The position numbers and the translations under genes are program-made. Below the pieces are notes generated by a model. The model was not told the DNA's origin. It worked only from the letters and a program-made list of their open reading frames with translations, and did not search any database. Positions 6,324 to 59,285 of a stretch of DNA of 63,072 bases are shown here, one piece after another. The DNA comes from a virus. Numbering within the stretch: position 1 is the stretch's first letter; the number at the start of each line of letters is the position of its first letter. The DNA is taken from the IMG/VR virus record IMGVR_UViG_3300044815_000135, positions 1-63,072 of that record; one strand, 5' to 3'.

Positions 6324-6337
6324 GTATGCTAGCATTC
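6324..6337. promoter_or_regulatory. palindrome copy 1 (GTATGCTAGCATTC)
   Basis: Imperfect copy of the GTATGCTAGCATAC palindrome repeated between the small genes of this block; likely a protein-binding site. Confidence 0.5.
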
Positions 6338-8269: not shown

Positions 8270-8393
8270 CAGGAAAACCGCTGCCCCCTCAGAGACGCCT
8301 CTGACGCCTTCTGAGCCTATGGCGTTTTTGATCGCTCAGGCCAAACGTTATCAACATGTTAATAAAGATGTGCATAAGTTTTTCAACAATGGC

Positions 8394-8422
8394 CTTGACT
8401 TTCGCGAGCGACTATGGTTTAA
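8394..8422 (+). promoter_or_regulatory. plus-strand promoter TTGACT-N17-TTTAAT without a downstream gene
   Basis: The only good promoter in this interval pointing right. The transcript would run through the parS site and meet the C6/G6 hairpin at 8500-8515 after roughly 90 bases, so it could make a small RNA or a replication primer. Confidence 0.5.
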
Positions 8423-8465
8423 TTGATGTGAAGCGTGTTTACTTTTGATTAGCAAACGCTAACAA

Positions 8466-8481
8466 TGTTTCACGTGAAACA
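8466..8481. promoter_or_regulatory. parS: parS centromere site (ParB-binding), exact 16-bp consensus
   Basis: TGTTTCACGTGAAACA, identical to the chromosomal parS consensus bound by ParB across Gram-positive bacteria and Actinobacteria; with flanking bases the palindrome is 18 bp. No ParA or ParB gene is visible, so host ParB would be the partner. A 16-bp exact match in 63 kb is very unlikely by chance. Confidence 0.85.
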
Positions 8482-8499
8482 TCGACACACACCGAATCA

Positions 8500-8515
8500 C
8501 CCCCCGCGAGGGGGG
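8500..8515. terminator. hairpin CCCCCC-GCGA-GGGGGG
   Basis: Perfect 6-bp stem with a GCGA loop (TCGC on the minus strand), between the stop of the DNA-binding gene at 8530 and the parS site. It could end minus-strand transcription of that gene and the plus-strand transcript from 8394-8422. Confidence 0.6.
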
Positions 8516-8529
8516 ATCATCGGCGAGGG

Positions 8530-8787
8530 TTACTCGGCGTCGATCTCGTCGAGGTCAGCGTCGGTGGGCTCTTCGCCCTCGGCGCGTGCATCGGCCTTCG
8601 CCTTGGCGGCAGCCTGGAATGCGGTGAACTTCGACTTGAGGGAGCGAACTGCCGACTTCTCGATCGTCCAGCGGCCGCCCTTGCCGGGCTGCTCATCCTT
8701 CGGCGTGATCGAGCGGAGGAACTTGCGGGCGGTGCGCCCATCGGTTCCCAGTTCGGTCGCGAGCTCCGGAACGGTGATCTGTGCCAT
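8530..8787 (-). CDS. Lsr2-like DNA-binding protein with acidic tail (copy 1)
   Basis: 85 residues starting MAQITVPELATELGTDGRTA. The core RKFLRSITPKDEQPGKGGRW resembles the C-terminal DNA-binding domain of Lsr2-type nucleoid proteins and matches the core of the 16.6-kb paralogue (LRQFLRS...GSGGRYEF). A short acidic tail follows (EGEEPTDADLDEIDAE). The ATG at 8850 is rejected because it lies inside the -10 hexamer of the gene's own promoter; the ATG at 8787 has AGGAG upstream. Lsr2-family proteins silence or organise DNA; the target here is unknown. Confidence 0.75.
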   Translation of the reverse strand: MAQITVPELATELGTDGRTARKFLRSITPKDEQPGKGGRWTIEKSAVRSLKSKFTAFQAAAKAKADARAEGEEPTDADLDEIDAE

Positions 8788-8845: not shown

Positions 8846-8873
8846 ATCATACCATAGTGACCCCCCTCGTCAA
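8846..8873 (-). promoter_or_regulatory. promoter TTGACG-N16-TATGAT
   Basis: -35 at 8868-8873, -10 at 8846-8851, preceded by TGG. Drives the DNA-binding protein below with a ~55-base leader containing AGGAG. Confidence 0.65.
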
Positions 8874-8922: not shown

Positions 8923-8951
8923 TTGACACCATTAGTCCAATGAGATATACT
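8923..8951 (+). promoter_or_regulatory. plus-strand promoter TTGACA-N17-TATACT
   Basis: Near-perfect promoter pointing to the 79-residue plus-strand gene, leaving a ~95-base leader. A second TATGAT ends six bases before that gene's ATG and might give a leaderless transcript. Confidence 0.75.
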
Positions 8952-9289: not shown

Positions 9290-9331
9290 CCCCCTCGAGC
9301 ACCTGACGCCTTCAGAGCGTTCCTGAGGGGG
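9290..9331 (+). terminator. CCCCCTC...GAGGGGG hairpin after the plus-strand gene
   Basis: Seven-bp stem enclosing 28 bases, directly at the end of the 79-residue gene. No T-tract. Confidence 0.45.
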
Positions 9332-10376
9332 TAGGGGTGTGTCGGGATAGCTAGCATTCCTGAGCGCCCCCAAATCGCATCAGATCGCTCCCTATACACT
9401 GTAGCGTTCAAGTTTAGTCGTGGGTTACGAGCAAAAAAGCTTATTGAGAATGATGTTCAATAGGAAGCCGTTCGGATAAACTTTCGATTGTCACGGCCTA
9501 CAGATGTGTCCAACTTCGGACATACGTTCGACGGAATAAATCTAGAATAAATGGGACTCTCTTGTCCCCTACAGAGCGGAGAGGTGCGCACTAGACACTT
9601 TCTAGACCCAAACCAAACCCAAACTTTTCTAGAACCTCTCCACCTTTGTACCCGGACAGGCCTGATAGTTCTAACTCACAAGTTTGAGCGCTATACTAGC
9701 AGGAAAAAATAAATTGGAGGACCTTGACGAGACTGAACTCCCATGTTGGCCCAACTAATGTGACCTATAGGTTATCTCTTAAACTTCAAACTCCCTGAAC
9801 GTCGTATATGGCATTCTCCCGGACGAAACCAAATATTCACCCTTACCCCATCAAACCTCAACCCGGATTTCCCAATTCACTTCCCTAATTTTCCTTAGAG
9901 ATTCTCATTCAAACTCTCAACTTATCCCTCAGCTTCAACCCTACCGCATAGCGATGTGTTGTGTGACAGGACGAGCCGAAGGCTCAGGACTGGCATGAAA
10001 TGCAACTCTACTTGAGTTTGGGTGAGTCCTCCGTGCAGCCCTCCATATAGCCCATAGTGCTCCATGCAGCCTCATTCCTAACTACCCTTTTCTGTTGAGC
10101 CCTTTTCTTTTGCCACCGTCTGGCATTTGCCCTAAATAATGCTCAAACACGTAATAAAACCCGAAAGATTAAACCTTATGAGTCATCTAACGGGCTAGAA
10201 TTCGCTCGACCTATTTAATTAATGAGTCTTGAAATTGCTCGAACTTTCTTGCACACATAGCTGTTGCACCAATCGATTGCATATATACCCCAAAGGGGTA
10301 TTATGCATCATGGGAAAGACTTTTACCCCGCGCGCAAGCGCATATGCGTACACGCATGAGTGAGCACTCCAGATAG
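9332..10376. other. gene-free 1-kb region
   Basis: No convincing gene on either strand. It contains a degenerate palindrome copy (9345-9360), TGTCC...GGACA near 9510, CTTTCTAGA/TTTTCTAGAA words near 9598-9634, and a strongly G-poor plus strand from about 9775 to 9950. A GAGCC-GAA-GGCTC hairpin lies near 9974 and ATACCCC-AAA-GGGGTAT near 10285. Its role is unknown. Confidence 0.4.
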
Positions 10377-56791: not shown

Positions 56792-56818
56792 GACCCATCA
56801 TCGAATGATGTGGATCAG

Positions 56819-56891
56819 TGGAAATGGCAGGATTCGAACCGACTACCTCTTTGACTGAGTCAAAGCGCTCTACCAACTGAGCTACATTCCC
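56819..56891 (-). tRNA. tRNA with abnormal anticodon loop (predicted anticodon UCA)
   Basis: Seven-bp acceptor stem (one G-U), D-arm GCTC...GAGC, T-arm with TTCGAAT loop and discriminator A; CCA not encoded. The anticodon arm CTTTG-ACTCAGT-CAAAG gives UCA in the normal register, but position 33 is C rather than the near-universal U, and the loop can close further (GAC/GTC). It may read UGA, be decayed, or be a tRNA mimic. Many genes here end in TGA, so efficient opal suppression would be costly. Confidence 0.6.
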
Positions 56892-58087: not shown

Positions 58088-58848
58088 TAGGGGGCTATCC
58101 TTCCATGCTCATTGAACTTGGTTAATGAAATGGGAAATAGCTGAGTCAGAATTTCTTCTACCTTCTTAGCAGCTAGTACAATTTCATACTGAGGTCGACC
58201 TTTATTGGTGGCATTTTCTTCAGCAGTACGAAGACCTAAGAAATGCAACCATGCTCGAAGATTAGCAGTAGCATACATAGTTGAGTTAATTGCTACTGGG
58301 AGATGAAGTCGAGCCATCTCATTAGCAATACCCATATTTAAAGCCTTTTGATACAAAGCCCATGACTGCTCATACCCCCAGATAAGATCCTCAACAAATT
58401 GGGTGTGGAGAATTATATCAGCAGGACCCATTACTGGTCTAGCACTAGTACCAATGTTAATAAGAGGCCTATTAGCTTCAGGGATATAAAAATTGGGAGT
58501 GAACTGGGTATATCGTCCAGATTGCTCATTGTAAGACTGAACTCGGTGACGATGCCACTCACGGAAAACCATAATGGGCGCAGTTACTCGAAATGTAATG
58601 GAGTTATGCTCAAAAGGGGTACCATGGCGTTCACTCATAAGATAGTTGATAAGGCCAGCACTTTCACCTTCTCCAAACTGAGTAGCATCAACTACTTCAC
58701 CAGTACTTACTCGAGCAGCATGAACAACCCCTGCATCATTACCCATATGTTGAATGAGTTCTACCCTTACACCTTCATGAAGTGTAATGTCATTGTGCTG
58801 ACGAATCACTTGATTGCCTCCTTGGCAGTATAGGTCTTGTACATCCAT
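58087..58848 (-). CDS. thyX: flavin-dependent thymidylate synthase
   Basis: 253 residues. The ThyX signature RHRVQSYNEQSGRY (from residue 100) is complete, with HGTPFEHNSITFRV before it and LHFLGLRTAEENA after it. Makes dTMP from dUMP using FAD and methylenetetrahydrofolate. Common in actinobacteria and their phages. Present in addition to a ThyA-fold enzyme at 25.6 kb. Overlaps the upstream gene by 43 bases, so a later start is possible. Confidence 0.95.
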   Translation of the reverse strand: MDVQDLYCQGGNQVIRQHNDITLHEGVRVELIQHMGNDAGVVHAARVSTGEVVDATQFGEGESAGLINYLMSERHGTPFEHNSITFRVTAPIMVFREWHRHRVQSYNEQSGRYTQFTPNFYIPEANRPLINIGTSARPVMGPADIILHTQFVEDLIWGYEQSWALYQKALNMGIANEMARLHLPVAINSTMYATANLRAWLHFLGLRTAEENATNKGRPQYEIVLAAKKVEEILTQLFPISLTKFNEHGRIAP

Positions 58849-59285
58849 GCTTTATGCTTCCACACCCATCGACGAAATTTGCCTCGCGGGATTCTTTTTA
58901 ATAGGGGATATAGCTTGGTATGCTTACTAAGGATATAGAATGTAAGACCCCAATCTTCACTAAAAGCTTGAGGATTACGAAGATTTTGCCATAGCCTTAA
59001 GTCGCCGGCAAATTTAGGATCTACTCTACTCCATTCAATGGGGTCGTTAGTTAGAGGAGAAAGGGGCTTATACTGAAGAAGTTGAGAAACCATATTTAGT
59101 GTTTGATTGGCTGATTCTCCAGAATGGCCCTGTTTACTAAATACAGTAACTAGTTCCATAACTCGCTTACGAAGTTCAGCATCCCAATGAGCTGATGGAT
59201 CTTTACTTCTAAGTTGGTCTCTGGTAAGCTGGGGAAAACCTATCAAATCTAGTTCTCTGTTAGCATGGTCGATCAAATTTGACAT
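58806..59285 (-). CDS. conserved-looking phage protein
   Basis: 159 residues. Central WQNLRNPQAFSEDWGLTFYI resembles the W.N.RN..AFSEDGG.TYY pattern of an uncharacterised phage family often near ThyX; basic aromatic C-terminus (RRWVWKHKAWMYKTY). Function unknown. Confidence 0.75.
   Translation of the reverse strand: MSNLIDHANRELDLIGFPQLTRDQLRSKDPSAHWDAELRKRVMELVTVFSKQGHSGESANQTLNMVSQLLQYKPLSPLTNDPIEWSRVDPKFAGDLRLWQNLRNPQAFSEDWGLTFYILSKHTKLYPLLKRIPRGKFRRWVWKHKAWMYKTYTAKEAIK

Follow-up and report, generated by a model that had tools for sequence, protein, structure and literature searches.

A lone chromosomal-type parS site beside a probable replication origin in an uncultured virus of actinobacteria

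Introduction

The chromosomal parS site of the bacterial ParABS system can be recognised by a 16 bp sequence (TGTTTCACGTGAAACA) or by its 14 bp core (GTTTCACGTGAAAC), as with the 14 bp ScparS core of Streptomyces. Mobile elements of actinobacteria are known to carry centromeres of their own. The actinophages RedRock, Miko and Alma, which have plasmid prophages, encode both ParA and ParB, and their parS consists of repeated 8 bp motifs (PMC7157519). The Streptomyces plasmid SCP1 has a dual ParABS, with ParB specificities that do not overlap that of the chromosomal ParB (PMC13245405).

The locus described here lies in a 63,072-base IMG/VR virus record; the whole of this stretch is called the window. 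It carries a 16-mer identical to chromosomal parS, including the 14 bp core, and has DnaA-box-like sequences beside it, as do the oriC-proximal parS sites of chromosomes. Unlike those of chromosomal ParABS, the site is single and lies on a phage genome without parA or parB, where it is known from sequence. It resembles the RedRock, Miko and Alma loci in being a centromere-type site of an actinophage near a probable replication origin, but differs in lacking ParAB and in being of host type. SCP1 is likewise a mobile actinobacterial element with centromere sites, and its strategy is the opposite of that implied by the host-type site of the window. Within the open-access literature (most subscription papers lie outside it), no description of ParB-less, host-type parS sites in phages was found, and a search for phage use of host ParB gave nothing relevant. 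Apart from a few jumbo and cytoskeleton-encoding phages, little is known of the way in which phages arrange and position their DNA in the bacterial cell.

Results

The Virus Genome and Its Relatives

The window has a GC content of 44.5%. In reverse orientation it is collinear with Curtobacterium phage Shrew and with the Microbacterium phages Huwbert and Triscuit over the terminase, portal, capsid, tape measure, DNA polymerase I, Cas4-type exonuclease, Sak4-like ATPase and primase/helicase genes. The hosts of these closest cultured relatives are Microbacteriaceae (Microbacterium, Curtobacterium), and the phage is an uncultured virus of actinobacteria, its host being placed at the level of the phylum. 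All relatives examined have a GC content of 50–63%, and the gap to the window suggests a low-GC actinobacterial host. A plasmid origin of the fragment was rejected, as a comparison with PLSDB found no similarity to any plasmid.

Exact direct terminal repeats are present in Shrew (4,512 bases), Huwbert (3,811) and Triscuit (3,795). No end repeat was found in the window, which is expected if the repeat collapsed during assembly. The Shrew repeat starts 1,171 bases before the start of a gene for an HTH protein that is shared with the window. If built in the same way, the repeat of the window would start at about 9.9 kb and end at about 5.4 kb, which would put the parS site and the box array described below at both ends of each packaged genome.

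Several other features of the genome were recorded. A region of about 1.1 kb without a long ORF (9290–10376) occupies the position homologous to the left edge of the Shrew terminal repeat. The cumulative GC skew reaches its maximum at about 8.0 kb, where the prevailing direction of genes is unchanged; this agrees with an origin or a terminus close to the parS region. A palindromic repeat, GTATGCTAGCATAC, occurs at 6324, 6894, 7841 and 8256, and also in L128, L146–L148 and at position 1542 of Shrew, and looks like an operator or stoperator-like element. Apart from tRNAs, no Rfam families were found in the window. One tRNA gene (56818–56891, minus strand; tRNA-SeC by ARAGORN), adjoining a tRNA-Leu(taa) gene, has the anticodon TCA and is possibly a UGA-reading tRNA. 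A match to the anti-defence protein Tad3, an inhibitor of type I Thoeris, is found at 58809–59285 on the minus strand (E 2.6e-26).

An Exact parS Site without Partition Genes

The parS site (8466–8481) matches TGTTTCACGTGAAACA at all 16 positions; it is palindromic and forms the core of an 18 bp perfect palindrome (8465–8482). It is the only site in the whole window with three or fewer mismatches, and the number of exact sites expected in the window by chance is 1e-5 under a first-order Markov model or 2e-5 from base composition. It stands between the HTH gene (8530–8787, minus strand) and an array of three DnaA-box-like sequences (8348–8377).

Neither a ParB_N nor an HTH_ParB domain was found in the window, and a Pfam scan of its 70 otherwise unassigned genes gave no ParA, ParB or integrase family. 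The initial annotation, which had reported an exact parS and no ParA or ParB gene, was therefore correct on both counts. Its proposal of an extrachromosomal prophage found no such backing: a plasmid-like prophage would be expected to have partition, lysogeny or plasmid replication genes, and a complete ParABS system would have parA and parB on the same replicon, but these searches gave neither an integrase nor a par family, and no lysogeny genes are annotated in Shrew, Huwbert or Triscuit.

The same site is common on chromosomes of the host phylum (Actinomycetota), the level at which the comparison was made. The exact 16-mer was found in 13 of 22 actinobacterial genomes, usually clustered, and the reversed control in none. 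Across 80 actinobacterial parB loci TGTTTCACGTGAAACA is the commonest parS 16-mer, and 78 of these loci have a site with two or fewer mismatches; control palindromes gave none.

The DnaA-Box-Like Array

Phage and plasmid origins such as P1 oriR may contain arrays of DnaA boxes, in which TTATNNACA-type 9-mers occur several times and in part head to head. The array of the window is similar in both respects. Three boxes of the form TTAT[N][CA]ACA fall within 30 bp at 8348–8377: TTATCAACA (8348–8356, plus strand), TTATTAACA (8357–8365, minus strand), which is head to head with the first and forms with it the near-palindrome TTATCAACATGTTAATAA, and TTATGCACA (8369–8377, minus strand), which fits TTATNCACA. 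Both DnaA-box-like sites noticed initially are thus present, while TTATTAACA had been missed. Three boxes within 120 bp were not seen in any of 200 shuffles of the window, so the cluster exceeds chance.

The same 9-mers recur in arrays near the HTH gene of relatives (L368; L370, of genome G001; L371, of genome G009; and L379), which strengthens the initial proposal of a replication origin in this region. These arrays have three to five boxes and lie 0.75–1.2 kb from the HTH start, on the opposite side of the gene from that in the window. The largest, in L371, has five boxes, including two head-to-head pairs that form palindromes, and the perfect palindrome TTATCAACATGTTGATAA is found in L148 and L371; in L370 the boxes all point the same way. 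Such freely mixed orientations and spacings are easier to reconcile with an initiator of the DnaA kind than with a single palindromic operator. We infer that the boxes are of the DnaA type and that the region is a probable replication origin. In two respects the array differs from those of the P1 oriR type: no initiator gene was identified adjoining it, and its boxes are near-consensus variants rather than the commonest host forms, which near actinobacterial parB loci are TTATCCACA and TTGTCCACA. Because of these variant forms, the reader of the array may be a phage protein.

The HTH Gene and Its Transcription Signals

The HTH gene (8530–8787, as above) encodes 85 aa, and in Shrew, Huwbert and Triscuit its homologues fall within the terminal repeats. 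After its stop codon comes a GC hairpin with a C6/G6 stem (CCCCCCGCGAGGGGGG; 8500–8515, minus strand). A GC-rich hairpin directly 3′ of the HTH stop was found in all five relatives folded (L146, L147, L148, Shrew and Huwbert), which identifies the hairpin as the terminator of the HTH gene. A promoter scan gave a promoter-like TTGACG-N16-TATGAT on the minus strand (8846–8873), which would drive the HTH gene, and a divergent promoter on the plus strand (8923–8951).

A plus-strand element, TTGACT (8395–8400)-N17-TTTAAT (8418–8423), had initially been described as a gene-less promoter giving a short primer RNA that ends at the hairpin. Neither part of this description survived: the scan rejected the element, the −10 of which lacks an A at position 2, the two divergent promoters are stronger, and the hairpin belongs to the HTH gene. 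A promoter with a dedicated terminator and no gene, as would mark an RNA-primed origin, was thus not found.

parS in Relatives of the Window Phage

A lack of conservation in relatives was among the refuting outcomes named with the initial annotation. No parS with two or fewer mismatches was found in any of 62 relatives, comprising the three cultured phages (Shrew, Huwbert and Triscuit), 13 from IMG/VR and a further 46; about 26 of the 62 have genomes longer than 50 kb. The 20 HTH-region loci gave the same result, none having a parS. Within the phage family, then, the check came out against conservation. Decayed copies were also considered and rejected, since the set of 46 genomes had only three matches at three mismatches, the same number as the reversed control. 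Given its absence from the family, the parS of the window phage is best described as a recent or patchy, lineage-specific gain, as judged from the genomes compared. The HTH protein was considered as a reader of parS and rejected, as the HTH gene is retained in relatives that have no parS.

ParB-less parS Sites across IMG/VR

Exact parS sites were found in at least 120 IMG/VR stretches, compared with 0 and 4 for two composition-matched palindromes, so that at most about 3% of the matches are expected by chance; the count is a lower bound, and the stretches listed are possibly not a random sample. Among the matches listed, 46 of 50 records of at least 16 kb lack a ParB_N domain (it is present in four), and 22 of the 50 have terminase family phrog_2, the one family tested, which together reduce the scope for chromosome contamination as their source. 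HTH_ParB did not exceed the cut-off in any of the 39 of these 50 records that were tested. Misclassified chromosome may explain part of the listed stretches, and a large part of them is phage. Some of these other phages carry two to five parS sites each.

A single terL family is present in 35 of the at least 120 stretches; it belongs to a marine phage clade with Pelagibacter phage HTVC027P and Phage DSL-LC04 as relatives. Among the matches listed, parS lies no more than about 150 bp upstream of terL in 14 of these 35. Members of the clade with parS about 20–150 bp upstream of terL include L033, L035, L048, L089, L099, L103, L107, L125 and L126, among others. The relatives L023 and L050 have five parS sites, mostly 0.3–1.4 kb upstream. 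An alignment of five diverged terL leaders (43% invariant columns) had as its longest invariant run the parS sequence ATGTTTCACGTGAAACA (17 nt), the next longest being 11 nt, and in a second, more diverged set of leaders parS was the sole conserved block. A separate motif resembling AGGGGCCCC is conserved immediately ahead of the start codon of terL in the leaders of the parS-bearing marine phages L033, L048, L107, L125 and L117.

In a sample based on terL, and so drawn independently of parS, the leader could be read in 37 close relatives. Thirteen have the exact parS and one has TGTTCCACGTGAAACA, while the rest have five or more mismatches; control palindromes never occurred at two or fewer mismatches. 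With almost no decayed forms between these extremes, the marine sites are either kept intact or missing. In the five cultured members parS was not found near terL. As parS is patchy in the marine clade too, its patchiness in the family of the window phage is no strong argument against function. The marine phages are an unrelated lineage that shares with the window phage an exact, ParB-less, host-type parS in an intergenic position. Their sites lie upstream of terL, whereas that of the window adjoins an HTH gene and a box array, and the uses of the site in the terL leader and in the origin-like region may differ.

Discussion

The exact consensus makes it very probable that the ParB of a permissive actinobacterium binds the parS of the window phage. 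Somewhat less certain, and still the likelier case, is that the site is a docking place for host ParB beside the probable origin and that this serves the phage. Host chromosomal ParB would load at the phage parS as a CTP-dependent clamp and spread over the flanking kilobases, thereby marking the box array, the HTH gene and the segment homologous to the terminal repeats as if they were a bacterial oriC-parS region. In a lytic infection, the likely benefit is that the infecting or replicating genome is positioned or tethered at the host segregation or pole machinery; alternatively, the phage genome may be compacted through ParB and SMC. Positioning or compaction ranks first among the possible benefits, titration of ParB second and prophage partition third, each being less probable than the docking site itself. 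That the phage borrows host ParB, as first suggested in the initial annotation, remains the best reading, strengthened by the ParB-less parS records and by conservation ahead of terL in the marine phages.

The site might instead act as a decoy: the many replicating phage copies, with host ParB loading and spreading on each, would strip it from the host chromosome, so that segregation and the loading of SMC are blocked. One parS is enough for ParB clamps to load, and cells have ParB in limiting amounts; such a sponge would also suit a lytic phage, and the gene scan found no prophage functions. It is nevertheless unlikely, because several sites might be expected and the window genome has one, though other phages carry two to five; nothing in the present results separates it from tethering. 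More doubtful still is partition of a plasmid-like, extrachromosomal prophage by the host ParABS. The site would be served by host ParB, and actinophages with plasmid prophages exist, but those carry their own ParAB (PMC7157519). That no integrase, ParA or ParB family was found, and that the cultured relatives are annotated without lysogeny genes, also speaks against it, and host ParB on a high-copy element may cause incompatibility with the chromosome.

About as improbable as partition is a coincidental identity with parS, either of an operator for some regulator of the phage or host or of a palindrome arising by chance. The site is indeed palindromic, lies 50 bp from the HTH gene in a genome with other palindromic repeats (GTATGCTAGCATAC) and is absent from relatives. 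Against this stand the expectation of about 1e-5 in the window, the excess over control palindromes in IMG/VR and, for an operator, the retention of the HTH gene where parS is missing; despite the absence from relatives, the observation is unlikely to be noise. Least probable by some distance is RNA-primed replication from the plus-strand promoter, stopping at the hairpin. The TTGACT-N17-TTTAAT sequence exists, and initiator RNAs take part in the prophage replication of some cluster A mycobacteriophages (PMC7157519), but the element fails the promoter scan, the hairpin serves the HTH gene as a conserved terminator, and genes for a primase/helicase and for DNA polymerase I are present in the phage itself.

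Docking of host ParB can be placed in a wider setting, for which the chances seem to us evenly balanced: unrelated phage lineages may exploit host segregation through a centromere without ParB, with the marine parS ahead of the terminase gene held by purifying selection, and with the actinophage carrying a small mimic of the oriC-parS region, formed by parS and the DnaA-box-like array, in its probable terminal-repeat segment. The association with terL in the marine phages would link ParB-parS to the expression of late genes or to packaging, and such a link would be unexpected. Chromosomal-type ParB-parS tags for watching phages presume that the phages are free of such sites, and some phages carry them. 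If the proposed role is true, ChIP-seq of ParB in infected cells is predicted to show signal on these phages, and by carrying one centromere of the host type a phage could, simply and testably, leave the placement of its DNA to the host.
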